Source: Sipunculus nudus (taxonomy: Eukaryota > Annelida > Sipuncula > Golfingiida > Sipunculidae). Taken from it: a stretch of 64,000 nucleotides of DNA. The stretch covers positions 31,789,339 to 31,853,338 of the forward strand of contig CM049316.1 in assembly GCA_026874595.1 (NCBI GenBank), in the 5' to 3' direction. This document shows, in pieces, positions 1-64,000 of the stretch (within the stretch, counting starts at the first letter, position 1; every line of letters begins with the position of its first letter). The position numbers and the translations under genes were made by a program. Below the pieces are notes generated by a model. That model saw nothing but the letters and a program-made list of their open reading frames with translations. It had not been told where the DNA came from and did no database searches.

Positions 1-3000
1 ATAATTCTGCTTCTTGAAAAAAAATCATTTATTTATTCCTGGGACCCATTTTCTAATTTTCACAGAATTTACCTACAGTGTTTCACCATTTCTGACGTTA
101 TTAGAGCCCCGCAAAGTCTAAAAATACATTATTGTTTTCAGAAAATGGTGCCAAAAAGCAATTATGAAGGCATAATCCCTTTGCTTAGACTTTGCTTATG
201 CTTTGCTTATTCTTTGCTTACGGCAAAATCACAACGGAAATGGAGCATTTTCCTAAAAATAAACACTGATATGACCCATAGGGAGATTGACGGGTCCTCT
301 GGCTGCACAGCGTTCTCGGTTAGTGAACATTTATATCAAAAGTAAGGGCAATATCGTTCAATCAAAACCAGAAATGTATATTTCAGCTATTTTTATAAAA
401 GTCATTTATTGATTCCTGGGACCTATTTTCTAATTTTAAAAGAATTTACTTAGTGTTTCACCATTTCTGACGTTATTAGAGCCCCGCAAGGTCTAAAAAT
501 ACATTATTGTCTTCAGAAAATGGTGCCAAAAAGCAATTATGAAGGCATAATCCCTTTGCTTAGACTTTTCTTATGCCTTGCTTATTCTTTGCTTACGGCA
601 AAATCACAACAGAAATGCAGCATTTTCCTAAAAATACACACTGATATGACCCATAGGGAGACAGACGGGTTCCCTGGCTACACAGCAGTCCCGGTTAGTG
701 AACATTAATATCAAAAATAAGGGCAATATCGTTCAATCAAAACCGCAAATGTATAGTTCAGCTATTTTTATAAAAGTCATTTATTGGTTTCTTGGACCCA
801 TTTTCCAATTTTAACACAATTTACCTACAGTGTTTTAACATTTCTGACATTATTAGACCCCCGTAAAGTCCAAAAATACATTATTTCTTCAGAAAATGGT
901 GCCAAAAAGCAATTATGAAGGCATAATCCCTTTGCTTACCCTTTGCTTATGCTTTGCTTATTCTTTGCTTATGGCAAAATCACAACAGAAATGCAGCAAT
1001 TCCCTAAAAATACACACTAATATGACCCATAGGGAGACAGACGGGTCCCCTGGCTACACAGCAGTCCCGGTTAGTGAACATTAATATCAAAAATAAGGGC
1101 AATATCGTTCAATCAAAACCGCAAATGTATATTTCAGCTATTTTTATAAAAGTCATTTATTGATTTCTTGGACCCATTTTTCAATTTTAACACAATTTAC
1201 CTACAGTGTTTTACTATTTCTGACATTATTAGACCCCCGCGAAGTCTAAAAATACATTATTGTCTTTAGAAAATGGTGCCAAAAAGCAATTATGAATGCA
1301 TAATCCGTTTTCTTACCCTTTGCTTATGCTTTGCTTATTCTTTGCTTACGGCAAAATCACAACGGAAATGGAGCATTTTCCTAAAAATACACAATAATAT
1401 GACACATAAGGAGACAGACGGGTCCCCTGGCTACACAGCAGTCCCGGTTAGTGAACATTAATATCAAAAATGAGGGCAATATCGTTCAATCAAAACCGCA
1501 AATGTATATTTCAGCTATTTTTATAAAAGTCATTTATTGATTCCTGGGACCTATTATCTAATTTTAAAAGAATTTACCTACAGTGTTTCACCATTTCTGA
1601 CGTTATTAGAGCCCCGCAAAGTCTAAAAATACATTATTGTCTTCAGAAAATGGTGCCAAAAGGCAATTATGAAGGCATAATCCCTTTGCTTACACTTTGC
1701 TTATGCTTTGCCTATTCTTTGCTTACGGCAAAATCACAACGGAAATGGAGCATTTTCCTAAAAATAAACACTGATATGACCCATAGGGAGATTGACGGGT
1801 CCTCTGGCTGCAGAGCGTTCTCGGTTAGTGAACATTAATATCAAAAAGGAGGGCAATATCGTTCAATCAAAACCAGAAATGTATATTTCAGCTATTTTTA
1901 TAAAAGTCATTTATTGATTCCTGGGACCTATTTTCTAATTTTAAAAGAATTTACCTACAATGTTTCACCATTTCTGACGTTATTAGAGCCCCGCAAAGTC
2001 TAAAAATACATTATTGTCTTCAGAAAATGGTGCCAAAAAGCAATTATGAAGGCATAATCCCTTTGCTTAGACTTTGCTTATGCTTTGCTTATTCTTTGCT
2101 TACGGCAAAATCACAACAGAAATGCAGCATTTTTCTAAAAATACACACTGATATGACCCATAGGGAGACAGACGGGTTCCCTGGCTACACAGCAGTCCCG
2201 GTTAGTGAACATTAATATCAAAAATAAGGGCAATATCGTTTAATCAAAACCGCAAATGTATATTTCAGCTATTTTTATAAAAGTCATTTATTGGTTTCTT
2301 GGACCCATTTTCCAATTTTAACACAATTTACCTACAGTGTTTTACCATTTCTGACATTATTAGACCCCCGTAAAGTCCAAAAATACATTATTTCTTCAGA
2401 AAATGGTGCCAAAAAGCAATTATGAAGGCATAATCCCTTTGCTTACCATTTGCTTATGCTTTGCTTATTCTTTGCTTATGGCAAAATCACAACAGAAATG
2501 CAGCAATTCCCTAAAAATACACACTAATATGACCCATAGGAAGACAGACGGGTCCCCTGGCTACACAGCAGTCCCGGTTAGTGAACATTAATATCAAAAA
2601 TAAGGGCAATATCGTTCAATCAAAACCGCAAATGTATATTTCAGCTATTTTTATAAAAGTCATTTATTGATTTCTTGGACCCATTTTTCAATTTTAACAC
2701 AATTTACCTACAGTGTTTTACTATTTCTGACATTATTAGACCACCGCTAAGTCTAAAAATACATTAATGTCTTCAGAAAATGGTGTCAAAAAGCAATTAT
2801 GAAGGCATAATCCCTTTGCTTACACTTTGCTTATGCTTTGCTTATTCTTTGCTTACGGCAAAATCACAACGGAAATGGAGCATTTTCCTAAAAATAAACA
2901 CTGATATGACCCATAGGGAGATAGACGGGTCCTCTGGCTGCAGAGCGTTCCCGGTTAGTGAACATTAATATCAAAAGTATGGGCAATATCGTTCAATCAA

Positions 3001-4823
3001 AACCAGAAATGTATATTTCAGCTATTTTTATAAAAGTCATTTATTGATTTCTTGGACCCATTTTTCAATTTTAACACAATTTACCTACAGTGTTTTACTA
3101 TTTCTGACATTATTAGACCCCCGCGAAGTCTAAAAATACATTATTGTCTTCAGAAAATGGTGCCAAAAAGCAATTATGAAGGCATAATCCCTTTGCTTAC
3201 ACTTTGCTTATGCTTTGCTTATTCTTTGCTTACGGCAAAATCACAGCAGAAATGCAGCATTTTCCTAAAAGTACACACTGATATGACCCATAGGGAGACA
3301 GACGGGTTCCCTGGCTACACAGCTGTCCCGGTTAGTGAACATTAATATCAAAAATAAGGGCAATATCGTTCAATCAAAACCGCAAATGTATATTTCAGCT
3401 ATTTTTATGAAAGTCATTTATTGGTTTCTTGGACCCATTTTCCAATTTTAACACAATTTACCTACAGTGTTTTACCATTTCTGACATTATTAGACCCCCG
3501 TAAAGTCCAAAAATACATTATTTCTTCAGAAAATGGTACCAAAAAGCAATTATGAAGGCATAATCCCTTTGCTTACCCTTTGCTTATGCTTTGCTTATTC
3601 TTTGCTTATGGCAAAATCACAACAGAAATGCAGCATTTTCCTAAAAATAAACACTGATATGACCCATAGGAAGATAGACGGGTACTCTAACTGCACGGCA
3701 GTCCCGGTTAGTGAACATTAATATCAATCCCTTTGCTTACCATTTGCTTATGCTGTGCTTATTCTTTGCTTATGGCAAAATCACAACAGAAATGCAGCAT
3801 TTTCCTAAAAATACACACTAATATAACCCATAGGGAGACAGACGGGTCCCCTGGCTACACAGCAGTCCCGGTTAGGGAACAATAATATCAAAATTAAGGG
3901 CAATATCGTTCAATCAAAACCGCAAATGTATATTTCAGCTATTTTTATAAAAGTCATTTATTGATTTCTTGGACCCATTTTTCAATTTTAAAAGAATTTA
4001 CCTACAGTGTTTTACTATTTCTGACATTATTAGACCCCCGCGAAGTCTAAAAATACATTATTGTCTTTAGAAAATGGTGCCAAAAAGCAATTATGAAGGC
4101 ATAATCCCTTTGCTTAGACTTTGCTTATGTTTTGCTTATTCTTTGCTTACGGCAAAATCACAACAGAAATGCAGCGTTTTCCTAAAAATACACACTGATA
4201 TGACCCATAGGGAGACAGACGGGTTCCCTGGCTACACAGCAGTCCCGGTTAGTGAACATTAATATCAAAAATAAGGGAATATCGTTCAATCAAAACCGCA
4301 AATGTATATTTCAGCTATTTTTATAAAAGTCATTTATTGGTTTCTTGGACCCATTTTCCAATTTTAACACAATTTCCCTACAGTGTTTTACTATTTATGA
4401 CATTATTAAACCCCTGTAAAGTCCAAAAATACATTATTTCTTCAGAAAATGGTGTCAAAAAGCAATTATGAAGGCATAATCCCTTTGCTTACACTTTGCT
4501 TATGCTCTGCTTATTCTTTGCTTACGGCAAAATCACAACAGAAATGCAGCATTTTCCTAAAAATAAACACTGATATGACAGATAGGGAGACAGACGGGTT
4601 CCCTGGCTACACAGCAGTCCCGGTAAGTGAACATTAATATCAAAAGTAAGGGCAATATCCTTCAATCAAAACCACAAATGTTTAATTCTGCTTCTTTAAA
4701 AAAGTCATTAATTGATTACTGGGACCCATTTTCTAATTTTAACAGAATTTAAATACAGTGTTTCACCATTTCTGGCATTATTAGACCCCCGCGAAGTCTA
4801 AAAATACATTATTTCTTCAGAAA
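1..4823 (+). repeat. Alpha-subtype HOR, partial (m1-m12)
   Basis: Anchors lie at 145, 520, 896, 1273, 1650, 2027, 2403, 2780, 3157, 3533, 4074 and 4449, matching m1 to m12 of the 5,057-bp HOR; bases 1-144 are the m1 upstream flank. Alpha-specific variants shared only with 12677-17732 include TTGTTTTCAG before m1, a 2-bp loss giving ACTTAGTG before m2, CACAATAATATG in m4 and a CAGAGCGTTCTCGG tail in m5. Anchors here plus 12,532 give the anchors of that other alpha copy. The unit ends by switching, at about 4771-4823, from the m13 flank into a block-D-type monomer. Confidence 0.9.
3728..4073 (+). repeat. Deletion-derived residual monomer, copy 1
   Basis: Monomer lacking its first ~31 bp and the flank before it (about 211 bp lost). 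The junction ATATCAA/TCCCTTTGC has 2 bp (AA) of possible microhomology. It carries CTTACCATTTGC and GCTGTGC, and ends AGGGAACAATAATATC. The same junction is found in all ten copies in the window. Confidence 0.92.
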
Positions 4824-5953
4824 ATGGTGCCAAAAAGCAATTATGAAGGCATATTCCCTTTGCTTACCCTTTGCTTATGCTTTGCTTATTCTTTGCTTAC
4901 GGCAAAATCACAACGGAAATGGAGCATTTTCCTAAAAATAAACACTGATATGACCCATAGGGAGATAGACGGGGACTCTAACTGCACAGCATTCCCGGTT
5001 AGTGAACATTAATATCAAAAGTAAGGGCAATATCGTTCAATCAAAACCAGAAATGTATAATTCTGCTTCTTGAAAAAAAATCATTTATTTATTCCTGGGA
5101 CCCATTTTCTAATTTTCACAGAATTTACCTACAGCGTTTCAAAATTTCTGACGTTATTAGAGCCCCGCAAAGTCTAAAAATACATTATTGTCTTCAGAAA
5201 ATGGTGCCAAAAAGCAATTATGAAGGCATAATCCCTTTGCTTACACTTTGCTTATGCTTTGCTTATTCTTTGCTTACGGCAAAATCACAACGGAAATGGA
5301 GCATTTTCCTAAAAATAAACACTGATATGACCCATAGGGAGATTGATGGGTCCTCTGGCTGCACAGCGTTCTCGGTTAGTGAACATTAATATCAAAAGTA
5401 AGGGCAATATCGTTCAATCAAAACCAGAAATGTATATTTCAGCTATTTTTATAAAAGTCATTTATTGATTCCTGGGACCTATTTTCTAATTTTAAAAGAA
5501 TTTACCTACAGTGTTTCACCATTTCTGACGTTATTAGAGCCCCGCAAAGTCTAAAAATACATTATTGTCTTCAGAAAATGGTGCCAAAAAGCAATTATGA
5601 AGGCATAATCCCTTTGCTTACCCTTTGCTTATGCTTTGCTTATTCCTTGCTTATGGCAAAATCACAACAGAAATGCAGCAATTCCCTAAAAATACACACT
5701 AATATGACCCATAGGGAGACAAACGGGTCCCCTGGCTACACAGCAGTCCCGGTTAGTGAACATTAATATCAAAAGTAAGGGCAATATCGTTCAATCAAAA
5801 CCAGAAATGTATATTTCAGCTATTTTTATAAAAGTCATTTATTGATTTCTTGGACCCATTTTTCAATTTTAACACAATTTACCTACAGTTTTTTACCATT
5901 TCTGACATTATTAGACCCTTGCGAAGTCTAAAAATACATTATTTCTTCAGAAA

Positions 5954-6329
5954 ATGGTGCCAAAAAGCAATTATGAAGGCATAATCCCTTTGCTTACCCT
6001 TTGCTTATGCTTTGCTTATTCTTTGCTTACGGCAAAATCACAACGGAAATGGAGCATTTTCCTAAAAATAAACACTGATATGACCCATAGGGAGATAGAC
6101 GGGTCCTTTGGCTGCAGAGCGTTCCCGGTTAGTGAACATTAATATCAAAAGTAAGGGCAATATCGTTCAATCAAAACCAGAAATGTATATTTCAGCTATT
6201 TTTATAAAAGTCATTTATTGGTTTCTTGGACCCATTTTCCAATTTTAACACAATTTACCAACAGTGTTTTACCATTTCTGACATTATTAGACCCCCGTAA
6301 AGTCCAAAAATACATTATTTCTTCAGCAA
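5954..6329 (+). repeat. Hybrid monomer, D-type front and m8-type tail
   Basis: The upstream flank has ACAGTTTTTTACC and GACCCTTGCGAAG, as before 36291. The tail GGGTCCTTTGGCTGCAGAGCG resembles m8. The next monomer is m7, so the exchange jumped out of register. Confidence 0.75.
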
Positions 6330-6706
6330 ATGGTGCCAAAAAGCAATTATGAAGGCATAATCCCTTTGCTTACCATTTGCTTATGCTTTGCTTATTCTTT
6401 GCTTATGGCAAAATCACAACAGAAATGCAGCAATTCCCTAAAAATACACACTAATATGACCCATAGGAAGACAGACGGGTCCCCTGGCTACACAGCAGTC
6501 CCGGTTAGTGAACATTAATATCAAAAATAAGGGCAATATCGTTCAATCAAAACCGCAAATGTATATTTCAGCTATTTTTATAAAAGTCATTTATTGATTT
6601 CTTGGACCCATTTTTCAATTTTAACACAATTTACCTACAGTGTTTTACTATTTCTGACATTATTAGACCACCGCTAAGTCTAAAAATACATTATTGTCTT
6701 CAGAAA

Positions 6707-7082
6707 ATGGTGTCAAAAAGCAATTATGAAGGCATAATCCCTTTGCTTACACTTTGCTTATGCTTTGCTTATTCTTTGCTTACGGCAAAATCACAGCAGA
6801 AATGCAGCATTTTCCTAAAAGTACACACTGATATGACCCATAGGGAGACAGACGGGTTCCCTGGCTACACAGCTGTCCCGGTTAGTGAACATTAATATCA
6901 AAAATAAGGGCAATATCGTTCAATCAAAACCGCAAATGTATATTTCAGCTATTTTTATGAAAGTCATTTATTGGTTTCTTGGACCCATTTTCCAATTTTA
7001 ACACAATTTACCTACAGTGTTTTACCATTTCTGACATTATCAGACCCCCGTAAAGTCCAAAAATACATTATTTCTTCAGAAA
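6707..7082 (+). repeat. Hybrid monomer m8/m9
   Basis: It begins as m8 (GACCACCGCTAAGTC upstream, ATGGTGTCAAAAAG) and ends as m9 (TCACAGCAGAAATGC, AAAAGTACACAC, ACAGCTGTCCC). The switch lies between about 6716 and 6792, spanning the 11-bp subrepeats. One monomer was lost. Confidence 0.85.
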
Positions 7083-7277
7083 ATGGTGCCAAAAAGCAAT
7101 TATGAAGGCATAATCCCTTTGCTTACCCTTTGCTTATGCTTTGCTTATTCTTTGCTTATGGCAAAATCACAACAGAAATGCAGCATTTTCCTAAAAATAA
7201 ACACTGATATGACCCATAGGAAGATAGACGGGTACTCTAACTGCACAGCAGTCCCGGTTAGTGAACATTAATATCAA

Positions 7278-7623
7278 TCCCTTTGCTTACCATTTGCTTA
7301 TGCTGTGCTTATTCTTAGCTTATGGCAAAATCACAACAGAAATGCAGCATTTTCCTAAAAATACACACTAATATGACCCATAGGGAGACAGACGGGTCCC
7401 CTGGCTACACAGCAGTCCCGGTTAGGGAACAATAATATCAAAAATAAGGGCAATATCGTTCAATCAAAACCGCAAATGTATATTTCAGCTATTTTTATAA
7501 AAGTCATTTATTGATTTCTTGGACCCATTTTTCAATTTTAAAAGAATTTACCTACAGTGTTTTACTATTTCTGACATTATTAGACCCCCGCGAAGTCTAA
7601 AAATACATTATTGTCTTTAGAAA
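7278..7623 (+). repeat. Residual monomer, copy 2
   Basis: Same junction; distinguished by TTCTTAGCTTATGG, shared only with copy 3. Confidence 0.92.
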
Positions 7624-10600
7624 ATGGTGCCAAAAAGCAATTATGAAGGCATAATCCCTTTGCTTAGACTTTGCTTATGTTTTGCTTATTCTTTGCTTAC
7701 GGCAAAATCACAACAGAAATGCAGCATTTTCCTAAAAATACACACTGATATGACCCATAGGGAGACAGACGGGTTCCCTGGCTACACAGCAGTCCCGGTT
7801 AGTGAACATTAATATCAAAAATAAGGGAATATCGTTCAATCAAAACCGCAAATGTATATTTCAGCTATTTTTATAAAAGTCATTTATTGGTTTCTTGGAC
7901 CCATTTTCCAATTTTAACACAATTTCCCTACAGTGTTTTACTATTTCTGACATTATTAAACCCCTGTAAAGTCCAAAAATACATTATTTCTTCAGAAAAT
8001 GGTGTCAAAAAGCAATTATGAAGGCATAATCCCTTTGCTTACACTTTGCTTATGCTCTGCTTATTCTTTGCTTACGGCAAAATCACAACAGAAATGCAGC
8101 ATTTTCCTAAAAATAAACACTGATATGACAGATAGGGAGACAGACGGGTTCCCTGGCTACACAGCAGTCCCGGTAAGTGAACATTAATATCAAAAGTAAG
8201 GGCAATATCCTTCAATCAAAACCACAAATGTTTAATTCTGCTTCTTTAAAAAAGTCATTAATTGATTACTGGGACCCATTTTCTAATTTTAACAGAATTT
8301 AAATACAGTGTTTCACCATTTCTGGCATTATTAGACCCCCGCGAAGTCTAAAAATACAATATTTCTTTATAAAATGGTGCCAAAAAGCAATTATTAAGGC
8401 ATATTCCCTTTGCTTACCCTTTGCTTATGCTTTGCTTATTCTTTGCTTACGGCAAAATCACAACGGAAATGGAGCATTTTCCTAAAAATAAAACCTGATA
8501 TGACCCATAGGGAGATAGACGGGGACTCTGACTGCACAGCATTCCCGGTTAGTGAACATTAATATCAAAAGTAAGGGCAATATCGTTCAATCAAAACCAG
8601 AAATGTATAATTCTGCTTCTTGAAAAAAAATCATTTATTTATTCCTGGGACCCATTTTCTAATTTTCACAGAATTTACCTACAGTGTTTCACCATTTCTG
8701 ACGTTATTAGAGCCCCGCAAAGTCTAAAAATACATTATTGTCTTCAGAAAATGGTGCCAAAAAGCAATTATGAAGGCATAATCCCTTTGCTTAGACTTTG
8801 CTTATGCTTTGCTTATTCTTTGCTTACGGCAAAATCACAACGGAAATGGAGCATTTTCCTAAAAATAAACACTGATATGACCCATAGGGAGATTGACGGG
8901 TCCTCTGGCTGCACAGCGTTCTCGGTTAGTGAACATTTATATCAAAAGTAAGGGCAATATCGTTCAATCAAAACCAGAAATGTATATTTCAGCTATTTTT
9001 ATAAAAGTCATTTATTGATTCCTGGGACCTATTTTCTAATTTTAAAAGAATTTACTTACAGTGTTTCACCATTTCTGACGTTATTAGAGCCTGCAAGGTC
9101 TAAAAATACATTATTGTCTTCAGAAAATGGTGCCAAAAAGCAATTATGAAGGCATAATCCCTTTGCTTAGACTTTTCTTATGCCTTGCTTATTCTTTGCT
9201 TACGGCAAAATCACAACAGAAATGCAGCATTTTCCTAAAAATACACACTGATATGACCCATAGGGAGACAGACGGGTTCCCTGGCTACACAGCAGTCCCG
9301 GTTAGTGAACATTAATATCAAAAATAAGGGCAATATCGTTCAATCAAAACCGCAAATGTATAGTTCAGCTATTTTTATAAAAGTCATTTATTGGTTTCTT
9401 GGACCCATTTTCCAATTTTAACACAATTTACCTACAGTGTTTTAACATTTCTGACATTATTAGACCCCCGTAAAGTCCAAAAATACATTATTTCTTCAGA
9501 AAATGGTGCCAAAAAGCAATTATGAAGGCATAACCCTTTGCTTACCCTTTGCTTATGCTTTGCTTATTCTTTGCTTATGGCAAAATCACAACAGAAATGC
9601 AGCAATTCCCTAAAAATACACACTAATATGACCCATAGGGAGACAGACGGGTCCCCTGGCTACACAGCAGTCCCGGTTAGTGAACATTAATATCAAAATA
9701 AGGGCAATATCGTTCAATCAAAACCGCAAATGTATATTTCAGCTATTTTTATAAAAGTCATTTATTGATTTCTTGGACCCATTTTTCAATTTTAACACAA
9801 TTTACCTACAGTGTTTTACTATTTCTGACATTATTAGACCCCCGCGAAGTCTAAAAATACATTATTGTCTTTAGAAAATGGTGCCAAAAAGCAATTATGA
9901 AGGCATAATCCGTTTTCTTACCCTTTGCTTATGCTTTGCTTATTCTTTGCTTACGGCAAAATCACAACGGAAATGGAGCATTTTCCTAAAAATACACACT
10001 AATATGACACATAAGGAGACAGACGGGTCCCCTGGCTACACAGCAGTCCCGGTTAGTGAACATTAATATCAAAAATGAGGGCAATATCGTTCAATCAAAA
10101 CCGCAAATGTATATTTCAGCTATTTTTATAAAAGTCATTTATTGATTCCTGGGACCTATTATCTAATTTTAAAAGAATTTACCTACAGTGTTTCACCATT
10201 TCTGACGTTATTAGAGCCCCGCAAAGTCTAAAAATACATTATTGTCTTCAGAAAATGGTGCCAAAAGGCAATTATGAAGGCATAATCCCTTTGCTTACAC
10301 TTTGCTTATGCTTTGCCTATTCTTTGCTTACGGCAAAATCACAACGGAAATGGAGCATTTTCCTAAAAATAAACACTGATATGACCCATAGGGAGATAGA
10401 CGGGTCCTCTGGCTGCACAGCGTTCCCGGTTAGTGAACATTAATATCAAAAGTAAGGGCAATATCGTTCAATCAAAACCAGAAATGTATATTTCAGCTAT
10501 TTTTATAAAAGTCATTTATTGATTTCTTGGACCCATTTTTCAATTTTAACACAATTTACCTACAGTTTTTTTACCATTTCTGACATTATTAGACCCCTGC

Positions 10601-10632
10601 GAAGTCTAAAAATACATTATTGTCTTCAGAAA

Positions 10633-11008
10633 ATGGTGCCAAAAGGCAATTATGAAGGCATAATCCCTTTGCTTACACTTTGCTTATGCTTTGCCTATTC
10701 TTTGCTTACGGCAAAATCACAACGGAAATGGAGCATTTTCCTAAAAATAAACACTGATATGACCCATAGGGAGATAGACGGGTCCTCTGGCTGCACAGCG
10801 TTCCCGGTTAGTGAACATTAATATCAAAAGTAAGGGCAATATCGTTCAATCAAAACCAGAAATGTATATTTCAGCTATTTTTATAAAAGTCATTTATTGG
10901 TTTCTTGGACCCATTTTTCAATTTTAACACAATTTACCTACAGTGTTTTACCATTTCTGACATTATCAGACCCCCGTAAAGTCCAAAAATACATTATTTC
11001 TTCAGAAA
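10633..11008 (+). repeat. Hybrid monomer, D-type flank with m5-like body
   Basis: The upstream flank has a T8 run and GACCCCTGCGAAGTC, as before 34410. The body repeats the preceding m5-like monomer (CCAAAAGGCAATT, TGCCTATTC). It replaces m6-m9 of the full HOR. Confidence 0.8.
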
Positions 11009-11203
11009 ATGGTGCCAAAAAGCAATTATGAAGGCATAATCCCTTTGCTTACCCTTTGCTTATGCTTTGCTTATTCTTTGCTTATGGCAAAATCACAACA
11101 GAAATGCAGCATTTTCCTAAAAATAAACACTGATATGACCCATAGGAAGATAGACGGGTACTCTAACTGCACAGCAGTCCCGGTTAGTGAACATTAATAT
11201 CAA

Positions 11204-11549
11204 TCCCTTTGCTTACCATTTGCTTATGCTGTGCTTATTCTTAGCTTATGGCAAAATCACAACAGAAATGCAGCATTTTCCTAAAAATACACACTAATAT
11301 GACCCATAGGGAGACAGACGGGTCCCCTGGCTACACAGCAGTCCCGGTTAGGGAACAATAATATCAAAAATAAGGGCAATATCGTTCAATCAAAACCGCA
11401 AATGTATATTTCAGCTATTTTTATAAAAGTCATTTATTGATTTCTTGGACCCATTTTTCAATTTTAAAAGAATTTACCTACAGTGTTTTACTATTTCTGA
11501 CATTATTAGACCCCCGCGAAGTCTAAAAATACATTATTGTCTTTAGAAA
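11204..11549 (+). repeat. Residual monomer, copy 3
   Basis: Same junction and the same TTCTTAGCTTATGG variant as copy 2, at offset 3,926. Confidence 0.92.
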
Positions 11550-12676
11550 ATGGTGACAAAAAGCAATTATGAAGGCATAATCCCTTTGCTTAGACTTTGC
11601 TTATGTTTTGCTTATTCTTTGCTTACGGCAAAATCACAACAGAAATGCAGCATTTTCCTAAAAATACACACTGATATGACCCATAGGGAGACAGACGGGT
11701 TCCCTGGCTACACAGCAGTCCCGGTTAGTGAACATTAATATCAAAAATAAGGGAATATCGTTCAATCAAAACCGCAAATGTATATTTCAGCTATTTTTAT
11801 AAAAGTCATTTATTGGTTTCTTGGACCCATTTTCCAATTTTAACACAATTTCCCTACAGTGTTTTACTATTTCTGACATTATTAAACCCCTGTAAAGTCC
11901 AAAAATACATTATTTCTTCAGAAAATGGTGTCAAAAAGCAATTATGAAGGCATAATCCCTTTGCTTACACTTTGCTTATGCTCTGCTTATTCTTTGCTTA
12001 CGGCAAAATCACAACAGAAATGCAGCATTTTCCTAAAAATAAACACTGATATGACAGATAGGGAGACAGACGGGTTCCCTGGCTACACAGCAGTCCCGGT
12101 AAGTGAACATTAATATCAAAAGTAAGGGCAATATCCTTCAATCAAAACCACAAATGTTTAATTCTGCTTCTTTAAAAAAGTCATTAATTGATTACTGGGA
12201 CCCATTTTCTAATTTTAACAGAATTTAAATACAGTGTTTCACCATTTCTGGCATTATTAGACCCCCGCGAAGTCTAAAAATACATTATTTCTTTATAAAA
12301 TGGTGCCAAAAAGCAATTATTAAGGCATATTCCCTTTGCTTACCCTTTGCTTATGCTTTGCTTATTCTTTGCTTACGGCAAAATCACAACGGAAATGGAG
12401 CATTTTCCTAAAAATAAACACTGATATGACCCATAGGGAGATAGACGGGGACTCTGACTGCACAGCATTCCCGGTTAGTGAACATTAATATCAAAAGTAA
12501 GGGCAATATCGTTCAATCAAAACCAGAAATGTATAATTCTGCTTCTTGAAAAAAAATCATTTATTTATTCCTGGGACCCATTTTCTAATTTTCACAGAAT
12601 TTACCTACAGTGTTTCACCATTTCTGACGTTATTAGAGCCCCGCAAAGTCTAAAAATACATTATTGTTTTCAGAAA

Positions 12677-52045: not shown

Positions 52046-52423
52046 ATGGTGCCAAAAAGCAATTATGAAGGCATAATCCCTTTGCTTACACTTTGCCCAT
52101 GCTTTGCTTATTCTTTGCTTACGGCAAAATCACAACAGATATGAAGCATTTTCCCTAAAAATACACACTAATATGACCCATAGGGAGACAGACGGCTCCC
52201 CTGGCTAGACAGCAGTCCCGGATAGTGAACATTAATATCAAAAATAAGGGCAATATCGTTCAATCAAAACCGCAAATGTATATTTCAGCTATTTTTATAA
52301 AAGTCATTTATTGATTTCTTGGACCCATTTTTCAATTTTAACACAATTTACCTACAGTGTTTTACTATTTCTGACATTATTAGACCCCCGCGAAGTCTAA
52401 AAATACATTATTGTCTTCAGAAA
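52046..52423 (+). repeat. Decayed D-type monomer, copy 2
   Basis: Copy of 37041 at offset 15,005. Confidence 0.88.
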
Positions 52424-55052
52424 ATTGTGCCAAAAAGCAATTATGAAGGCATAATCCCTTTGCTTACACTTTGCTTATCCTTTGCTTATTCTTTGCTTAC
52501 GGCAAAATCACAACAGAAATGCAGCATTTTCCTAAAAATACACACTGATATGACCCATAGGGAGACAGACGGGTTCCCTGGCTACACAGCAGTCCCGGTT
52601 AGTGAACATTAATATAAAAAATAAGGGCAATATCGTTCAATCAAAACCGCAAATGTATATTTCAGCTATTTTTATAAAAGTCATTTATTGATTTCTTTGA
52701 CCCATTTTCCAATTTTAACACAATTTACCTACAGTGTTTTACCATTTCTGACATTATTAGACCCCCGTAAAGTCCAAAAATACATTATTTCTTCAGAAAA
52801 TGGTGCCAAAAAGCAATTATGAAGGCATAATCCCTTTGCTTACCCTTTGCTTATGCTTTGCTTATTCTTTGCTTACGGCAAAATCACAGCGGAAATGGAG
52901 CATTTTCCTAAAAACAAACACTGATATGACAGATAGGGAGACAGACGGGTTCCCTGGCTACACAGCAGTCCCGGTTAGTGAACATTAATGTCAAAAGTAA
53001 GGGCAATATCCTTTAATCAAAACCACAAATGTATGATTCTGCTTCTTTAAAAAAGTCATTAATTGATTCCTGGGACCCATTTTCTAATTTTAACAGAATT
53101 TAAATACAGTGTTTCACCATTTCTGACATTATTAGACTTCCGCGAAGTCTAAAAATACATTATTTCTTCATAAAATGGTGCCAAAAAGCAATTATGAAGG
53201 CATATTCCCTTTGCTTACCCTTTGCTTATGCTTTGCTTATTCTTTGCTTACGGCAAAATCACAACGGAAATGGAGCATTTTCCTAAAAATAAACACTGAT
53301 ATGACCCATAGGGAGATAGACGGGGACTCTAACTGCACAGCATTCCCGGTTAGTGAACATTAATATCAAAAGTAAGGGCAATATCGTTCAATCAAAACCA
53401 GAAATGTATAATTCTGCTTCTTGAAAAAAAATCATTTATTTATTCCTGGGACCCATTTTCTAATTTTCACAGAATTTACCTACAGCGTTTCAAAATTTCT
53501 GACGTTATTAGAGCCCCGCAAAGTCTAAAAATACATTATTGTCTTCAGAAAATGGTGCCAAAAAGCAATTATGAAGGCATAATCACTTTGCTTACACTTT
53601 GCTTATGCTTTGCTTATTCTTTGCTTACGGCAAAATCACAACGGAAATGGAGCATTTTCCTAAAAATAAACACTGATATGACCCATAGGGAGATTGACGG
53701 GTCCTCTGGCTGCACAGCGTTCTCGGTTAGTGAACATAAATATCAAAAGTAAGGGCAATATCGTTCAATCAAAACCAGAAATGTATATTTCAGCTATTTT
53801 TATAAAAGTCATTTATTGATTTCTTGGACCCATTTTTCAATTTTAACACAATTTACCTACAGTTTTTTACCATTTCTGACATTATTAGACCCTTGCGAAG
53901 TCTAAAAATTCATTATTTCTTCAGAAAATGGTGCCAAAAAGCAATTATGAAGGCATAATCCCTTTGCTTACCCTTTGCTTATGCTTTGCTTATTCTTTGC
54001 TTACGGCAAAATCACAACGGAAATGGAGCATTTTCCTAAAAATAAACACTGATATGACCCATAGGGAGATAGACGGGGACTCTGACTGCACAGCAGTCCC
54101 GGTTAATGAACATTAATATCAAAAGTAAGGGCAATATCGTTCAATCAAAACCAGAAATGTATAATTCTGCTACTTTAAAAAGTCATTCATTGATTCCTGG
54201 GACCTATTTTCTAAATTTAAAAGAATTTACCTACAGTGTTTCACCATTTCTGACGTTATTAGAGCCCCGCAAATCTAAAGATACATTATTGTCTTCAAAA
54301 AATGGTGCCAAAAAGCAATTATGAAGGCATAATCCCTTTGCTTACACTTTGCTTATGCTTTGCTTATTCTTTGCTTACGGCAAAATCACAACAGAAATGC
54401 AGCATTTTCCTAAAAATACATACTTATATTACCCATATCGAGACAAACGGGTTCCCTGGCTACACAGCAGTCACGGTCAGTGAAAATTAATATCAAAAGT
54501 AGGGGCAATATCGTTCAATAAAAACCGCACATGTATAATTCTGCTACTTTAAAAAAGTCATTTATTGATTCCTGGGACCCATTTTCTAATTTTAACAGAA
54601 TTTAAATACAGTGTTTCACCATTCCTGACATTATTAGACCCCCGCAAAGCCCAAATATACATTATTTCTTCAGAAAATGGTGCCAAAAAGCAATTATGAA
54701 GGCATAATCCCTTTGCTTACACTTTGCTTATCCTTTGCTTATTCTTTGCTTACGGCAAAATCACAACAGAAATGCAGCATTTTCCTAAAAATACACACTG
54801 ATATGACCCATAGGGAGACAGACGGGTTCCCTGGCTACACAGCAGTCCCGGTTAGTGAACATTAATATCAAAAATAAGGGCAATATCGTTCAATCAAAAC
54901 CGCAAATGTATATTTCAGCTATTTTTATAAAAGTCATTTATTGCTTTCTTTGACCCATTTTCCAATTTTAACACAATTTACCTACAGTGTTTTACCATTT
55001 CTGACATTATTAGACCCCCGTAAAGTCCAAAAATACATTATTTCTTCAGAAA

Positions 55053-55803
55053 ATGGTGCCAAAAAGCAATTATGAAGGCATAATCCCTTTGCTTACCCTT
55101 TGCTTATGCTTTGCTTATTCTTTGCTTACGGCAAAATCACAGCGGAAATGGAGCATTTTCCTAAAAATAAACACTGATATGACAGATAGGGAGACAGACG
55201 GGTTCCCTGGCTACACAGCAGTCCCGGTTAGTGAACATTAATGTCAAAAGTAAGGGCAATATCCTTTAATCAAAACCACAAATGTATAATTCTGCTTCTT
55301 TAAAAAAGTCATTAATTGATTCCTGGGACCCATTTTCTAATTTTAACAGAATTTAAATACAGTGTTTCACCATTTCTGACATTATTAGACCCCCGCGAAG
55401 TCTAAAAATACATTATTTCTTCATAAAATGGTGCCAAAAAGCAATTATGAAGGCATATTCCCTTTGCTTACCCTTTGCTTATGCTTTGCTTATTCTTTGC
55501 TTACGGCAAAATCACAACGGAAATGGAGCATTTTCCTAAAAATAAACACTGATATGACCCATAAGGAGACAGACGGGTTCCCTGGCTACACAGCAGTCCC
55601 GGTTAGTGAACATTAATATCAAAAATAAGGGCAATATCGTTCAATCAAAACCGCAAATGTATATTTCAGCTATTTTTATAAAAGTCATTTATTGCTTTCT
55701 TTGACCCACTTTCCAATTTTAACACAATTTACCTACAGTGTTTTACCATTTCTGACATTATTAGACCCCCGTAAAGTCCAAAAATACATTATTTCTTCAG
55801 AAA
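55053..55803 (+). repeat. Two-monomer local duplication, left copy (751 bp)
   Basis: Monomers 55053 and 55428. Upstream flank TTGCTTTCTTTGACCC; first body has TCACAGCGG and GACAGATAGGG; second follows the class C flank, GGCATATTCCC. The second body ends with a Q-type tail (ACCCATAAGGAGACAGACGG). Confidence 0.85.
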
Positions 55804-56555
55804 ATGGTGCCAAAAAGCAATTATGAAGGCATAATCCCTTTGCTTACCCTTTGCTTATGCTTTGCTTATTCTTTGCTTACGGCAAAATCACAGCGGAAAT
55901 GGAGCATTTTCCTAAAAATAAACACTGATATGACAGATAGGGAGACAGACGGGTTCCCTGGCTACACAGCAGTCCTGGTTAGTGAACATTAATGTCAAAA
56001 GTAAGGGCAATATCCTTTAATCACAACCACAAATGTATAATTCTGCTTCTTTAAAAAAGTCATTAATTGATTCCTGGGACCCATTTTCTAATTTTAACAG
56101 AATTTAAATACAGTGTTTCACCATTTCTGACATTATTAGACCCCCGCGAAGTCTAAAAATACATTATTTCTTCATAAAATGGTGCCAAAAAGCAATTATG
56201 AAGGCATATTCCCTTTGCTTACCCTTTGCTTATGCTTTGCTTATTCTTTGCTTACGGCAAAATCACAACGGAAATGGAGCATTTTCCTAAAAATAAACAC
56301 TGATATGACCCATAGGGAGATAGACGGGGACTCTGACTGCACAGCATTCCCGGTTAGTGAACATTAATATCAAAAGTAAGGGCAATATCGTTCAATCAAA
56401 ACCAGAAATGTATAATTCTGCTTCTTGAAAAAAAATCATTTATTTATTCCTGGGACCCATTTTCTAATTTTCACACAATTTACCTACAGTGTTTCACCAT
56501 TTCTGACGTTATTAGAGCCCCGCAAAGTCTAAAAATACATTATTGTCTTCAGAAA
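55804..56555 (+). repeat. Two-monomer local duplication, right copy (752 bp)
   Basis: Monomers 55804 and 56179, each 751 bp after its partner. The upstream flank repeats TTGCTTTCTTTGACCC with one change (CCACTTTCC). The last body returns to the GGGGACTCTGACTGCAC tail. Confidence 0.85.
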
Positions 56556-56750
56556 ATGGTGCCAAAAAGCAATAATGAATGCATAATCCCTTTGCTTACA
56601 CTTTGCTTATGCTTTGCTTATTCTTTGCTTACGGCAAAATCACAACAGAAATGGAGCATTTTCCTAAAAATAAACACTGATATGACCCATAGGAAGATAG
56701 ACGGGTACTCTAACTGCACAGCAGTCCCGGTTAGTGAACATTAATATCAA

Positions 56751-57096
56751 TCCCTTTGCTTACCATTTGCTTATGCTGTGCTTATTCTTTGCTTATGGCA
56801 AAATCACAACAGAAATGCAGCATTTTCCTAAAAATACACACTAATATGACCCATAGGGAGACAGACGGGTCCCCTGGCTACACAGCAGTCCCGGTTAGGG
56901 AACATTAATATCAAAAATAAGGGCAATATCGTTCAATCAAAACCGCAAATGTATATTTCAGCTATTTTTATAAAAGTCATTTATTGATTTCTTGGACCCA
57001 TTTTTCAATTTTAACACAATTTACCTAAAGTGTTTTACTATTTCTGACATTATTAGACCCCCGCGAAGTCTAAAAATACATTATTGTCTTTAGAAA
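56751..57096 (+). repeat. Residual monomer, copy 10 (block G)
   Basis: Same junction, but with AGGGAACATTAATATC where the other copies have AGGGAACAATAATATC, and a class B flank with ACACAATTTACCTAAAG. It looks like the least changed version. Confidence 0.9.
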
Positions 57097-59733
57097 ATGG
57101 TGCCAAAAAGCAATTATGAAGGCATAATCCCTTTGCTTACACTTTGCTTATGTTTTGCTTATTCTTTGCTTACGGCAAAATCACAACAGAAATGCAGTAT
57201 TTTCCTAAAAATACACACTGATATGACCCATAGGGAGACAGACGGGTTCCCTGGCTACACAGCAGTCCCGGTAAGTGAACATTAATATCAAAAATAAGGG
57301 CAATATCGTTCAATCAAAACCGCAAATGTATATTTCAGCTATTTTTATAAAAGTCATTTATTGGTTTCTTGGACCCATTTTCCAATTTTAACACAATTTC
57401 CCTACAGTGTTTTACTATTTCTGACATTATTAAACCCCTGTAAAGTCCAAAAATACATTATTTCTTCAGAAAATGGTGTCAAAAAGCAATTATGAAGGCA
57501 TAATCCCTTTGCTTACACTTTGCTTATGCTTTGCTTATTCTTTGCTTACGGCAAAATCACAACAGAAATGCAGCATTTTCCTAAAAATAAACACTGATAT
57601 GACAGATAGGGAGACAGACGGGTTCCCTGGCTACACAGCAGTCCCGGTTAGTGAACATTAATGTCAAAAGTAAGGGCAATATCCTTCAATCAAAACCACA
57701 AATGTATAATTCTGCTTCTTTAAAAAAGTCATTAATTGATTACTGGGACCCATTTTCTAATTTTAACAGAATTTAAATACAGTGTTTCACCATTTCTGAC
57801 ATTATTAGACCCCCGCAAAGTCTAAAAATACATTATTTCTTTATAAAATGGTGCCAAAAAGCAATTATTAAGGCATATTCCCTTTGCTTACCCTTTGCTT
57901 ATGCTTTGCTTATTCTTTGCTTACGGCAAAATCACAACGGAAATGGAGCATTTTCCTAAAAATAAACACTGATATGACCCATAGGGAGATAGACGGGGAC
58001 TCTGACTGCACAGCATTCCCGGTTAGTGAACATTAATTTCAAAAGTAAGGGCAATATCGTTCAATCAAAACCAGAAATGTATAATTCTGCTTCTTGAAAA
58101 AAAATCATTTATTTATTCCTGGGACCCATTTTCTAATTTTCACAGAATTTACCTACAGTGTTTCACCATTTCTGACGTTATTAGAGCCCCGCAAAGTCTA
58201 AAAATACATTATTGTCTTCAGAAAATGGTGCCAAAAAGCAATTATGAAGGCATAATCCCTTTGCTTACACTTTGCTTATGCTTTGCTTATTCTTTGCTTA
58301 CGGCAAAATCACAACGGAAATGGAGCATTTTCCTAAAAATAAACACTGATATGACCCATAGGGAGATTGACGGGTCCTCTGGCTGCACAGCGTTCTCGGT
58401 TAGTGAACATTTATATCAAAAGTAAGGGCAATATCGTTCAATCAAAACCAGAAATGAATATTTCAGCTATTTTTATAAAAGTCATTTATTGATTCCTGGG
58501 ACCTATTTTCTAATTTTAAAAGAATTTACTTACAGTGTTTCACCATTTCTGACGTTATTAGAGCCCCGCAAGGTCTAAAAATACATTATTGTCTTCAGAA
58601 AATGGGGCCAAAAAGCAATTATGAAGGCATAATCCCTTTGCTTAGACTTTTCTTATGCCTTGCTTATTCTTTGCTTACGGCAAAATCACAACAGAAATGC
58701 AGCATTTTCCTAAAAATACACACTGATATGACCCATAGGGAGACAGACGGGTTCCCTGGCTACACAGCAGTCCCGGTTAGTGAACATTAATATCAAAAAT
58801 AAGGGCAATATCGTTCAATCAAAACCCGCAAATGTATAGTTCAGCTATTTTTATAAAAGTCATTTATTGGTTTCTTGGACCCATTTTCCAATTTTAACAC
58901 AATTTACCTACAGTGTTTTAACATCTCTGACATTATTAGACCCCCGTAAAGTCCAAAAATACATTATTTCTTCAGAAAATGGTGCCAAAAAGCAATTATG
59001 AAGGCATAATCCCTTTGCTTACCCTTTGCTTATGATTTGCTTATTCTTTGCTTATGGCAAAATCACAACAGAAATGCAGCAATTCCCTAAAAATACACAC
59101 TAATATGACCCATAGGGAGACAGACGGGTCCCCTGGCTACACAGCAGTCCCGGTTAGTGAACATTAATATCAAAAATAAGGGCAATATCGTTCAATCAAA
59201 ACCAGAAATGTATATTTCAGCCAATTTTATAAAAGTCATTTATTGATTTCTTGGACCCATTTTTCAATTTTAACACAATTTACCTACAGTGTTTTACTAT
59301 TTCTGATATTATTAGACCCCCCCGAAGTCTAAAAATACATTATTGTCTTTAGAAAATGATGCCAAAAAGCAATTATGAAGGCATAATCCGTTTGCTTACC
59401 CTTTGCTTATGCTTTGCTTATTCTTTGCTTACGGCAAAATCACAACGGAAATGGAGCATTTTCCTAAAAATACACACTAATATGACCCATAAGGAGACAG
59501 ACGGGTTCCCTGGCTACACAGCAGTCCCGGTTAGTGAACATTAATATCAAAAATAAGGGCAATATCGTTCAATCAAAACCCGCAAATGTATAGTTCAGCT
59601 ATTTTTATAAAAGTCATTTATTGGTTTCTTGGACCCATTTTCCAATTTTAACACAATTTACCTACAGTGTTTTAACATCTCTGACATTATTAGACCCCCG
59701 CGAAGTCTAAAAATACATTATTGTCTTCAGAAA

Positions 59734-60110
59734 ATTGTGCCAAAAAGCAATTATGAAGGCATAATCCCTTTGCTTACCCTTTGCTTATGCTTTGCTTATT
59801 CTTTGCTTACGGCAAAATCACAACGGAAATGGAGCATTTTCCTAAAAATACACACTAATATGACCCATAAGGAGACAGACGTGTCCCCTGGCTACACAGC
59901 AGTCCCGGTTAGTGAACATTAATATAAAAAATGAGGGCAATATCGTTCAATCAAAACCGCAAATGTATATTTCAGCTATTTTTATAAAAGTCATTTATTG
60001 ATTCCTGGGACCTATTATCTAATTTTAAAAGAATTTACCTAAAGTGTTTCACCATTTATGACGTTATTAGAGCCCCGCAAAGTCTAAAAATACATTTTTG
60101 TTTTCAGAAA
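59734..60110 (+). repeat. Hybrid monomer with copied m3 upstream flank
   Basis: Its upstream flank carries AAAACCCGCAAATG, GTATAGTTCAGC and TTAACATCTCTGAC, the same rare set found before 58979 about 754 bp earlier. It then switches to CCCCCGCGAAGTC and a W/N body ending GACGTGTCCCC. The start reads ATTGTGCC. Confidence 0.82.
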
Positions 60111-61613
60111 ATGGTGCCAAAAGGCAATTATGAAGGCATAATCCCTTTGCTTAGACTTTGCTTATGCTTTGCTTATTCTTTGCTTACGGCAAAATCACAA
60201 CGGAAATGGAGCATTTTCCTAAAAATAAACACTGATATGACCCATAGGGAGATAGACGGGTCCTCTGGCTGCACAGCGTTCCCGGTTAGTGAACATTAAT
60301 ATCAAAAGTAAGGGCAATATCGTTCAATCAAAACCAGAAATGTATATTTCAGCTATTTTTATAAAAGTCATTTATTGATTCCTGGGACCTATTTTCTAAT
60401 TTTAAAAGAATTTACCTACAGTGTTTCACCATTTCTGACGTTATTAGAGCCCCGCAAAGTCTAAAAATACATTATTGTCTTCAGAAAATGGTGCCAAAAA
60501 GCAATTATGAAGGCATAATCCCTTTGCTTACCCTTTGCTTATGCTTTGCTTATTCCTTGCTTATGGCAAAATCACAACAGAAATGCAGCAATTCCCTAAA
60601 AATACACACTAATATGACCCATAGGGAGACATACGGGTCCCCTGGATACACAGCAGTCCCGGTTAGTGAACATTAATATCAAAAGTAAGGGCAATATCGT
60701 TCAATCAAAACCAGAAATGTATATTTCAGCTATTTTTATAAAAGTCATTTATTGATTTCTTGGACCCATTTTTCAATTTTAACACAATTTACCTACAGTT
60801 TTTTACCATTTCTGACATTATTAGACCCTTGCGAAGTCTAAAAATACATTATTTCTTCAGAAAATGGTGCCAAAAAGCAATTATGAAGGCATAATCCCTT
60901 TGCTTACCCTTTGCTTATGCTTTGCTTATTCTTTGCTTACGGCAAAATCACAACGGAAATGGAGCATTTTCCTAAAAATAAACACTGATATGACCCATAG
61001 GGAGATAGACGGGGACTCTGACTGCACAGCAGTCCCGGTTAGTGAACATTAATATCAAAAGTAAGGGCAATATCGTTCAATCAAAACCAGAAATGTATAA
61101 TTCTGCTACTTTAAAAAAGTCATTCATTGATTCCTGGGACCTATTTTCTAAATTTAAAAGAATTTACCTACAGTGTTTCACCATTTCTGACGTTATTAGA
61201 GCCCCGCAAATCTAAAAATACATTATTGTCTTCAAAAAATGGTGCCAAAAAGCAATTATGAAGGCATAATCCCTTTGCTTACACTTTGCTTATGCTTTGC
61301 TTATTCTTTGCCTACGGCAAAATCACAACAGAAATGCAGCATTTTCCTAAAAATACATACTTATATTACCCATATCGAGACAAACGGGCTCCCTGGCTAC
61401 ACAGCAGTCACGGTCAGTGAAGATTAATATCAAAAGTAAGGGCAATATCGTTCAATAAAAACCGCAGATGTATAATTCTGCTACTTTAAAAAAGTCATTT
61501 ATTGATTCCTGGGACCCATTTTCTAATTTTAACAGAATTTAAATACAGTGTTTCACCATTTCTGACATTATTAGACCCCCGCAAAGCCCAAATATACATT
61601 ATTTCTTCAGAAA

Positions 61614-61991
61614 ATGGTGCCAAAAAGCAATTATGAAGGCATAATCCCTTTGCTTACACTTTGCTCATGCTTTGCTTATTCTTTGCTTACGGCAAAATCA
61701 CAACAGAAATGAAGCATTTTCCCTAAAAATACACACTAATATGACCCATAGGGAGACAGACGGCTCCCCTGGCTAGACAGCAGTCCCGGATAGTGAACAT
61801 TAATATCAAAAATAAGGGCAATATCGTTCAATCAAAACCGCAAATGTATATTTCAGCTATTTTTATAAAAGTCATTTATTGATTTCTTGGACCCATTTTT
61901 CAATTTTAACACAATTTACCTACAGTGTTTTACTATTTCTGACATTATTAGACCCCCGCGAAGTCTAAAAATACATTATTGTCTTCAGAAA
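61614..61991 (+). repeat. Decayed D-type monomer, copy 3
   Basis: Same extra C and TAG as at 37041 and 52046, but with TTTGCTCATGC and CAACAGAAATGAAGC. It therefore predates two of the changes seen in the other two copies. Confidence 0.88.
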
Positions 61992-63869
61992 ATTGTGCCA
62001 AAAAGCAATTATGAAGGCATAATCCCTTTGCTTACACTTTGCTTATCCTTTGCTTATTCTTTGCTTACGGCAAAATCACAACAGAAATGCAGCATTTTCC
62101 TAAAAATACACACTGATATGACCCATAGGGAGACAGACGGGTTCCCTGGCTACACAGCAGTCCCGGTTAGTGAACATTAATATCAAAAATAAGGGCAATA
62201 TCGTTCAATCAAAACCGCAAATGTATATTTCAGCTATTTTTATAAAAGTCATTTATTGATTTCTTTGACCCATTTTCCAATTTTAACACAATTTACCTAC
62301 AGTGTTTTACCATTTCTGACATTATTAGACCCCCGTAAAGTCCAAAAATACATTATTTCTTCAGAAAATGGTGCCAAAAAGCAATTATGAAGGCATAATC
62401 CCTTTGCTTACCCTTTGCTTATGCTTTGCTTATTCTTTGCTTACGGCAAAATCACAGCGGAAATGGAGCATTTTCCTAAAAACAAACACTGATATGACAG
62501 ATAGGGAGACAGACGGGTTCCCTGGCTACACAGCAGTCCCGGTTAGTGAACATTAATGTCAAAAGTAAGGGCAATATCCTTTAATCAAAACCACAAATGT
62601 ATGATTCTGCTTCTTTAAAAAAGTCATTAATTGATTCCTGGGACCCATTTTCTAATTTTAACAGAATTTAAATACAGTGTTTCACCATTTCTGACATTAT
62701 TAGACTTCCGCGAAGTCTAAAAATACATTATTTCTTCATAAAATGGTGCCAAAAAGCAATTATGAAGGCATATTCCCTTTGCTTACCCTTTGCTTATGCT
62801 TTGCTTATTCTTTGCTTACGGCAAAATCACAACGGAAATGGAGCATTTTCCTAAAAATAAACACTGATATGACCCATAGGGAGATAGACGGGGACTCTAA
62901 CTGCACAGCATTCCCGGTTAGTGAACATTAATATCAAAAGTAAGGGCAATATCGTTCAATCAAAACCAGAAATGTATAATTCTGCTTCTTGAAAAAAAAT
63001 CATTTATTTATTCCTGGGACCCATTTTCTAATTTTCACAGAATTTACCTACAGCGTTTCAAAATTTCTGACGTTATTAGAGCCCCGCAAAGTCTAAAAAT
63101 ACATTATTGTCTTCAGAAAATGGTGCCAAAAAGCAATTATGAAGGCATAATCACTTTGCTTACACTTTGCTTATGCTTTGCTTATTCTTTGCTTACGGCA
63201 AAATCACAACGGAAATGGAGCATTTTCCTAAAAATAAACACTGATATGACCCATAGGGAGATTGACGGGTCCTCTGGCTGCACAGCGTTCTCGGTTAGTG
63301 AACATAAATATCAAAAGTAAGGGCAATATCGTTCAATCAAAACCAGAAATGTATATTTCAGCTATTTTTATAAAAGTCATTTATTGATTTCTTGGACCCA
63401 TTTTTCAATTTTAACACAATTTACCTACAGTTTTTTACCATTTCTGACATTATTAGACCCTTGCGAAGTCTAAAAATTCATTATTTCTTCAGAAAATGGT
63501 GCCAAAAAGCAATTATGAAGGCATAATCCCTTTGCTTACCCTTTGCTTATGCTTTGCTTATTCTTTGCTTACGGCAAAATCACAACGGAAATGGAGCATT
63601 TTCCTAAAAATAAACACTGATATGACCCATAGGGAGATAGACGGGGACTCTGACTGCACAGCAGTCCCGGTTAATGAACATTAATATCAAAAGTAAGGGC
63701 AATATCGTTCAATCAAAACCAGAAATGTATAATTCTGCTACTTTAAAAAGTCATTCATTGATTCCTGGGACCTATTTTCTAAATTTAAAAGAATTTACCT
63801 ACAGTGTTTCACCATTTCTGACGTTATTAGAGCCCCGCAAATCTAAAGATACATTATTGTCTTCAAAAA

Positions 63870-64000
63870 ATGGTGCCAAAAAGCAATTATGAAGGCATAA
63901 TCCCTTTGCTTACACTTTGCTTATGCTTTGCTTATTCTTTGCTTACGGCAAAATCACAACAGAAATGCAGCATTTTCCTAAAAATACATACTTATATTAC
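63870..64000 (+). repeat. Partial monomer at the window end
   Basis: First 131 bp of a D-type Q monomer matching 54302 (TACATACTTATATTAC at the very end). The array continues past the window. Confidence 0.92.

Follow-up and report, generated by a model that had tools for sequence, protein, structure and literature searches.

A higher-order repeat array of a 377-bp satellite in Sipunculus nudus and the record of its growth

How does a long stretch of DNA come to consist of one tandem repeat ordered at several nested scales, and what does this order suggest about its place in the chromosome? We addressed these questions for 64,000 bp of contig CM049316.1 of Sipunculus nudus (assembly GCA_026874595.1, forward-strand positions 31,789,339–31,853,338), referred to below as the window; positions are counted from its first base. 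An initial annotation made from the sequence had described nested periodicities at 11 bp, ~376 bp, ~1.5 kb, 5,057 bp and 9.6–15 kb. Our analysis indicates that the window is very probably a eukaryotic satellite array with higher-order repeats (HORs), which may well be centromeric or pericentromeric and which would have grown through unequal exchange in register or through break-induced replication. No evidence contradicting the HOR organization was found in this analysis.

A single satellite family in higher-order repeats

Wrap-around alignment to the window's own 377-bp consensus placed 63,992 of the 64,000 bases on one strand, with an identity of 94.9% and only 8 inserted bases, so that there is no room for another element in the array. 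The absence of interruptions announced by the initial annotation thus holds over the 64 kb; Rfam families and transfer RNAs (tRNAs) within the array were rejected, with no match at the gathering score for the former and none found for the latter in the window. The alignment resolves 177 units: 165 are full monomers (374–378 bp), ten are 164-bp pieces, and the remaining two are ends truncated at the window borders. The ~376-bp scale corresponds to this 377-bp monomer, with an autocorrelation of 0.582 vs 0.273, the second value being, here and in the like comparisons below, that of shuffled sequence. Full monomers diverge from one another by 7.8% on average and by 13.0% at most.

The 5,057-bp period is equally clear (autocorrelation 0.576 vs 0.276) and consists of 13 monomers (4,893 bp) followed by one partial monomer of 164 bp. 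Grouping the monomers at 2.5% divergence yielded 23 types, denoted by letters in the list below, where each HOR ends with the 164-bp piece, except the last one, which is cut.

1–64000, plus strand: uninterrupted array of the single 377-bp satellite family, 177 units in the wrap-around alignment
1–3725, plus strand: HOR cut by the window start, with a 173-bp end piece, types ABCDEBCFB and the 164-bp piece
3726–7275, plus strand: variant HOR of 9 monomers + 164 bp (3,550 bp), types GHIJEKLCB
7276–11201, plus strand: variant HOR of 10 monomers + 164 bp (3,926 bp), types GHIJABCDML
11202–16257, plus strand: 13-mer HOR (5,056 bp), types GHIJABCDEBCFB, with 16 mismatches and 3 gap bases relative to the next copy
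16258–21314, plus strand: 13-mer HOR (5,057 bp), types GHIJABCDEBCFB, identical copy
21315–26371, plus strand: 13-mer HOR (5,057 bp), same types, identical copy
26372–31428, plus strand: 13-mer HOR (5,057 bp), same types, identical copy
31429–41376, plus strand: variant HOR of 26 monomers + 164 bp (9,948 bp), types GHIJACDMNOJEKPQRBSJCDEBCFB
41377–46433, plus strand: 13-mer HOR (5,057 bp), types GHIJABCDEBCFB, identical copy and 15-kb duplicate of the copy at 26372
46434–56748, plus strand: variant HOR of 27 monomers + 164 bp (10,315 bp), types GHIJACDMNOJEKPQRBSJMPQBSTSJ
56749–64000, plus strand: variant HOR truncated at the window end, types GHIJABUVWEKPQRBSJMP
16094–16257, plus strand: example of the 164-bp partial monomer that closes each HOR; the others start at 3562, 7112, 11038, 21151, 26208, 31265, 41213, 46270 and 56585, also on the plus strand

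The monomers of one 13-mer diverge by 1.6–11.9%, while 13-mer copies differ from one another by 0–16 mismatches and 0–3 gap bases; accordingly, mean monomer divergence is 5.3% at a lag of 13 monomers vs 7.6–8.8% at lags of 1–12. The window therefore displays both features that define a HOR array, i.e. head-to-tail monomers of a single family and HOR copies far closer to each other than are their own monomers. More specifically, the copies at 16258, 21315, 26372 and 41377 show no difference over 5,057 bp, and the differences that set the copy at 11202 apart from them all precede position 15,390. The initial annotation had proposed a homogeneous array of HORs made of 13 monomers and a fixed residual piece. 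Homogeneity is found in the middle of the window but not at its ends, and the residual piece is indeed fixed, with the same join in ten cases out of ten, but only five of the nine complete HORs are 13-mers, the others holding 9, 10, 26 and 27 monomers.

The ~1.5-kb scale does not constitute a separate level. The autocorrelation peaks at 377, 753, 1,130, 1,504 and 1,883 bp decrease smoothly (0.582, 0.496, 0.460, 0.419 and 0.383), and monomers four apart diverge by 7.7% on average, which lies within the range of lags 1–12. Within the 13-mer, monomers 5–7 are close to monomers 9–11 (1.6–3.2%) and monomer 2 to monomer 6 (2.9%), so that four of the nine monomer pairs four apart are less than 4% divergent, which in random orders has a p of 0.011 for lag 4 alone and of 0.10 for any lag. 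A run of three close pairs at any lag has a p of 0.07, and the circular lag-4 mean a p of 0.08, or 0.42 for the lowest of lags 1–6. The ~1.5-kb scale is at most the fourth harmonic of 377 bp plus a weak trace of an old four-monomer duplication:

17762–20397, plus strand: remnant four-monomer (~1.5 kb) duplication, A B C (monomers 5–7) resembling E B C (monomers 9–11), 1.6–3.2% divergence, weak

At the smallest scale, the 11-bp periodicity reported initially is borne out by the autocorrelation at lag 11 (0.343 vs 0.272) and stems from a run of four copies of the 11-mer CTTTGCTTAnn, one run per monomer. Four TTTGCTTA cores, one substitution being allowed, lie within the first 60 bp of 174 of the 177 units; two of the remaining units have three cores and one, truncated at the beginning of the window or at another end, has none. 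The least variable 20-bp bin of the monomer (columns 140–159) lies just ahead of this cluster.

179–220, plus strand: example of the 4 × 11-bp cluster present once per monomer

Regarding strand and composition, one 24-base anchor matches the plus strand 110 times and the minus strand not once in the window, and inverted copies were rejected on this basis. A coding role is unlikely, the longest stop-free stretch of the repeated consensus being 103 codons on the plus strand and 34 on the minus strand, with no protein search made. The A/T content of the window is 64.8%, and strand asymmetry extends over the whole array (GC skew −0.137, AT skew +0.022). The observed/expected ratio is 0.57 for CpG vs 1.43 for CAG/CTG, and transitions amount to 7.7% at CpG columns vs 3.6–3.9% at other C/G columns, an excess that concerns 12 columns and is driven by three of them. 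CpG depletion without CAG/CTG depletion, together with these transitions, would fit CpG-only methylation and hence an animal better than a plant, as a hint and not a proof.

Helical rhythm and chromosomal location

A scale absent from the initial annotation is the recurrence of WW dinucleotides (AA, TT, AT, TA) every 10.47 bp. It amounts to 36 turns per 377-bp monomer at a near-constant phase, which is thus maintained from one monomer to the next; the 164-bp piece, by contrast, spans 15.66 turns and hence shifts the phase once per HOR. In the consensus, the spectral peak lies at 10.45 bp with a power of 21.0, vs at most 16.8 among 2,000 shuffles of the consensus that preserve dinucleotides (10.0–10.8 bp) and at most 19.7 when all periods of 8–14 bp were allowed in 500 shuffles; none of 500 plain shuffles attained the observed value. 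The peak is present in columns 1–161 alone (10.40 bp) and, weaker, in columns 206–377 alone (10.30 bp), that is, outside the 11-bp cluster, which is therefore not its cause. When the monomer was followed round in sixteen overlapping stretches of 147 bp, the phase stayed within −0.17 to −0.28 turns. All 165 full monomers peak at 10.3–10.5 bp, but as related sequences they do not count as independent observations. WW power exceeds that obtained with randomly placed substitutions in 33 of 44 distinct monomers, kinship making this an unclean test of selection.

The window thus displays the WW periodicity near 10 bp that defines nucleosome-phasing satellites, and the rhythm is predicted from the sequence to be a rotational nucleosome-positioning signal, in which case the array would package nucleosomes in regular rotational phase. 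Two sets of data fit this prediction poorly: SS (G/C) dinucleotides have no 10-bp rhythm and peak at 18.7 bp, and AA/TT alone peak at 8.3 bp in columns 206–377. Among the local WW autocorrelation maxima of the window, those at 11, 22, 31, 53, 73, 94 and 104 bp fit multiples of 10.47 bp, and those at 8, 17, 40, 47 and 112 bp do not. Rather than a novelty, the rhythm is a feature of an already known kind, as a 10-bp WW rhythm has been found in many satellites and tied to rotational nucleosome phasing (PMC8997354, PMC5844345).

Where in the chromosome does such an array lie? Its location is the least certain step of our interpretation. A centromeric or pericentromeric position is somewhat favoured by the sequence, and an active centromere role, as proposed initially, is plausible: HORs, copies up to 100% identical, the lack of room for inserts, a monomer of about two nucleosomes and the 10.5-bp phasing are all consistent with a centromere. 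Other observations are neutral or weigh on the other side. The full CENP-B box (TTCG....A..CGGG, nine essential bases) is absent from the window and the consensus matches it at six of the nine bases at best; a CENP-B-binding satellite was rejected, the nine essential bases never being all present. The best matches in the window (8/9 at 36801, 51806, 54437 and 61374, all in monomers of type Q) are probably due to chance; 34 matches of 7/9 occur in the window, and a shuffled consensus attains at least seven in 53 of 200 cases. Nor was an excess of single-strand folding observed in the one monomer tested (z 0.16, 51 of 100 shuffles folding as well). Finally, CENP-A of human chromosome 8 sits on a layer of mixed HORs and not on the most identical layer, other human arrays being different (PMC8997354); homogeneity alone is therefore no mark of an active core.

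The array might instead be a subtelomeric or interstitial heterochromatic satellite block devoid of a kinetochore role, its HORs having arisen by the same exchange process. We consider this rather unlikely, although it is the strongest of the alternatives. The missing CENP-B box speaks for it, as does the fact that a monomer length close to 377 bp has no diagnostic value; subtelomeric satellites of about 370–380 bp exist in some plants. What argues against such a block is the combination of HOR copies of up to 100% identity with 10.5-bp WW phasing, features reported, not exclusively, for centromeric satellites (PMC8997354).

Growth of the array

The irregularities of the array bear on how it grew. 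The alignment contains ten phase jumps, all identical in kind (column 322 to column 159). All ten 164-bp pieces share this jump as well as identical 45 bases around the join, which points most likely to one founding event, and fall into three distinct full-length sequences. Both parents carry AA at the join, the sole sequence that they share there (about 2 bp), as expected of end-joining or slippage. A single out-of-register join, produced by such an event with about 2 bp of shared sequence, would thus have created the 164-bp piece, which would then have spread with the HOR. Since there is no other phase jump, all that the array subsequently gained or lost would be due to exchange at matching places of the monomers: in-register recombination between monomers would have added or removed whole monomers or whole HORs. 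Candidate routes, both described in PMC8997354, are unequal exchange between sister chromatids and break-induced replication, here with restart on a copy that is out of step.

Larger duplications add to this picture. The initial annotation had noted levels at 9.6–15 kb, and we recovered both a lag of 9,568 and an exact duplication at a lag of 15,005 (autocorrelation 0.514 vs 0.273 shuffled), the autocorrelation check proposed with it thus giving peaks at 5,057 as well as 15,005; a further duplication at a lag of 12,532 had been missed.

23532–53584, plus strand: exact tandem duplication, 23532–38579 = 38537–53584 (15,048 bp), with a lag of 15,005 = 9,948 + 5,057
15390–32099, plus strand: exact repeat at lag 5,057, 15390–27042 = 20447–32099 (11,653 bp)
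1–5541 vs 12533–18073, plus strand: duplication at lag 12,532, 99.75% identity over 5,541 bp, 3,893 bp exact
50491–64000, plus strand: duplication at lag 9,568, 50491–54432 vs 60059–64000, 3,942 bp at 99.7%, running off the window

Note that the lag-12,532 match begins at the window start, so that a further duplication of over 12 kb may continue leftwards beyond it. The two 15-kb copies are joined by a 43-bp overlap of identical sequence (38537–38579, monomer columns 120–162), which takes in the least variable bin of the monomer. The lack of any difference between these copies limits their divergence to ~2 per 10,000 at the 95% level (rule of three, 15,048 bp), which corresponds to an age under about 10,000 generations, the rate of 1e-8 mutations per site per generation without conversion between copies being an assumption.

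Some of these events can be ordered. Over 1,498 aligned bases (27043–28540 vs 32100–33597), the HOR starting at 26372 departs from that starting at 31429 at 12 positions, and all 12 differences recur between their duplicates, which start at 41377 and 46434; these differences are therefore older than the 15-kb duplication, and the variant HOR of 9,948 bp, with its differences from the 13-mer, would predate the duplication of the 15-kb segment. The 15-kb duplication and the exact 5,057-bp duplications are both letter-perfect and may have occurred in either order. There is also a slight indication that a zone of the monomer which holds the 15-kb join, roughly columns 104–221, may be preferred for exchange: when the array was cut in 29 different frames, the ten frames at columns 104–221 gave 21–23 types at 2.5% grouping and the other nineteen 23–28, with unit counts varying from 154 to 165, although the contrast is smaller at 1–2% grouping and the tallied block ends are not independent.

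Several points temper this account of growth. As the HOR borders were set by the 164-bp piece, the presence of one piece per HOR is partly a matter of definition, and the 26- and 27-monomer HORs may be fusions that have lost a piece. Unequal exchange and break-induced replication predict the same pattern and are indistinguishable here. Moreover, an assembly artefact in which one real segment was placed twice could underlie the exact tandem copy at lag 15,005, and might also have raised the count of exact 5,057-bp copies. Assemblers err at such long exact tandem repeats, and the lack of any difference across 15,048 bp is in line with such an error; we nevertheless regard it as improbable. The copy at 16258–21314 is exact although no part of it belongs to the 15-kb event, and lag 12,532 likewise includes 3,893 exact bp, so that exactness is not confined to a single event. 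Frequent exchange, too, predicts exact neighbours. None of these arguments is decisive.

Two further proposals fare much worse. The HOR might be a unit of chromatin architecture, in which the monomers are rotationally locked and the 164-bp piece, about one nucleosome long, is retained because it breaks the phase or forms a boundary and is not a mere recombination scar. If so, all nucleosomes along a run of monomers could share one orientation, with the phase broken once per HOR, but we give this very little credence. Equally improbable is the derivation of the monomer from a smaller unit, as a dimer of about 178–199 bp that would add a nesting level below 377 bp: despite a minor autocorrelation peak at 178 bp (0.327) and a best consensus self-lag at 178 (34.5% identity; mean 27.0%, standard deviation 2.3%), the top three self-lags, 178, 125 and 53, equal 17.0, 11.9 and 5.1 turns of 10.47 bp and are thus accounted for by the WW rhythm, which makes a half-monomer origin unnecessary for the 178-bp peak, and the best local match between the monomer halves falls in the 11-bp cluster itself, so that an ancient half-monomer was rejected.

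Relation to known satellites and meaning of the array

Like human alpha-satellite, the array combines tandem monomers in HORs, near-identical HOR copies and divergent monomers within the HOR, alpha-satellite HOR copies being 97–100% identical (PMC8122249). In layer 4 of human chromosome 8, HORs of differing monomer number, derived from one another, co-occur (PMC8997354), as do the monomer-number variants described here. The likeness has limits: the monomers of the 13-mer are 1.6–11.9% apart here, whereas those of alpha-satellite share 50–70% identity (PMC8997354), and, unlike alpha-satellite, the array has no full CENP-B box and closes each HOR with a 164-bp partial monomer.

Monomer size also separates the two, at 377 bp here vs about 171 bp in alpha-satellite. 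In this respect a counterpart is TCAST1 of Tribolium castaneum, whose monomers are 362 or 377 bp long, Tcast1b being 377 bp, and which covers centromeric and pericentromeric regions (PMC3411249); the likeness to the present monomer is one of length. TCAST subfamilies share 79% on average (PMC3411249), vs a maximum divergence of 13.0% among full monomers here. Strong WW rhythms at the helical repeat also occur in rice CentO and the Drosophila 10-mers (PMC8997354, PMC5844345); compared to these satellites, phasing is here predicted only from sequence, and the monomer covers about two nucleosome repeats in its 36 turns. As to composition, TCAST is more A/T-rich (about 73%) than the window.

Searches for relatives were negative within their scope. 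Patterns of 31 and 27 bases from the monomer had no match in collections of viral and prokaryotic contigs, which carries little weight for a eukaryotic satellite, and a distant blastn comparison of 1,198 bp with phage sequences returned none. A literature search with three monomer strings and their reverse complements, and by monomer length, retrieved no sequence match, an absence that does not amount to novelty; a 376-bp long terminal repeat (LTR) probe of jujube, similar in length, was set aside as a different kind of sequence.

The accepted picture of satellite evolution is unchanged by these findings. To our knowledge, there are as yet few complete HOR arrays from organisms other than primates. 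The 36-turn rhythm yields a direct prediction for nucleosome mapping. Above all, the clear record of satellite growth announced by the initial annotation can indeed be read, with variants, breakpoints and exact duplications that are legible and partly ordered: each HOR carries a common scar, and variants in monomer number stand side by side. The 164-bp scar thereby offers a natural marker for counting exchange events, and the exact 15-kb copy, if it is not an assembly error, would mean that the array has recently grown in blocks of several HORs at once.

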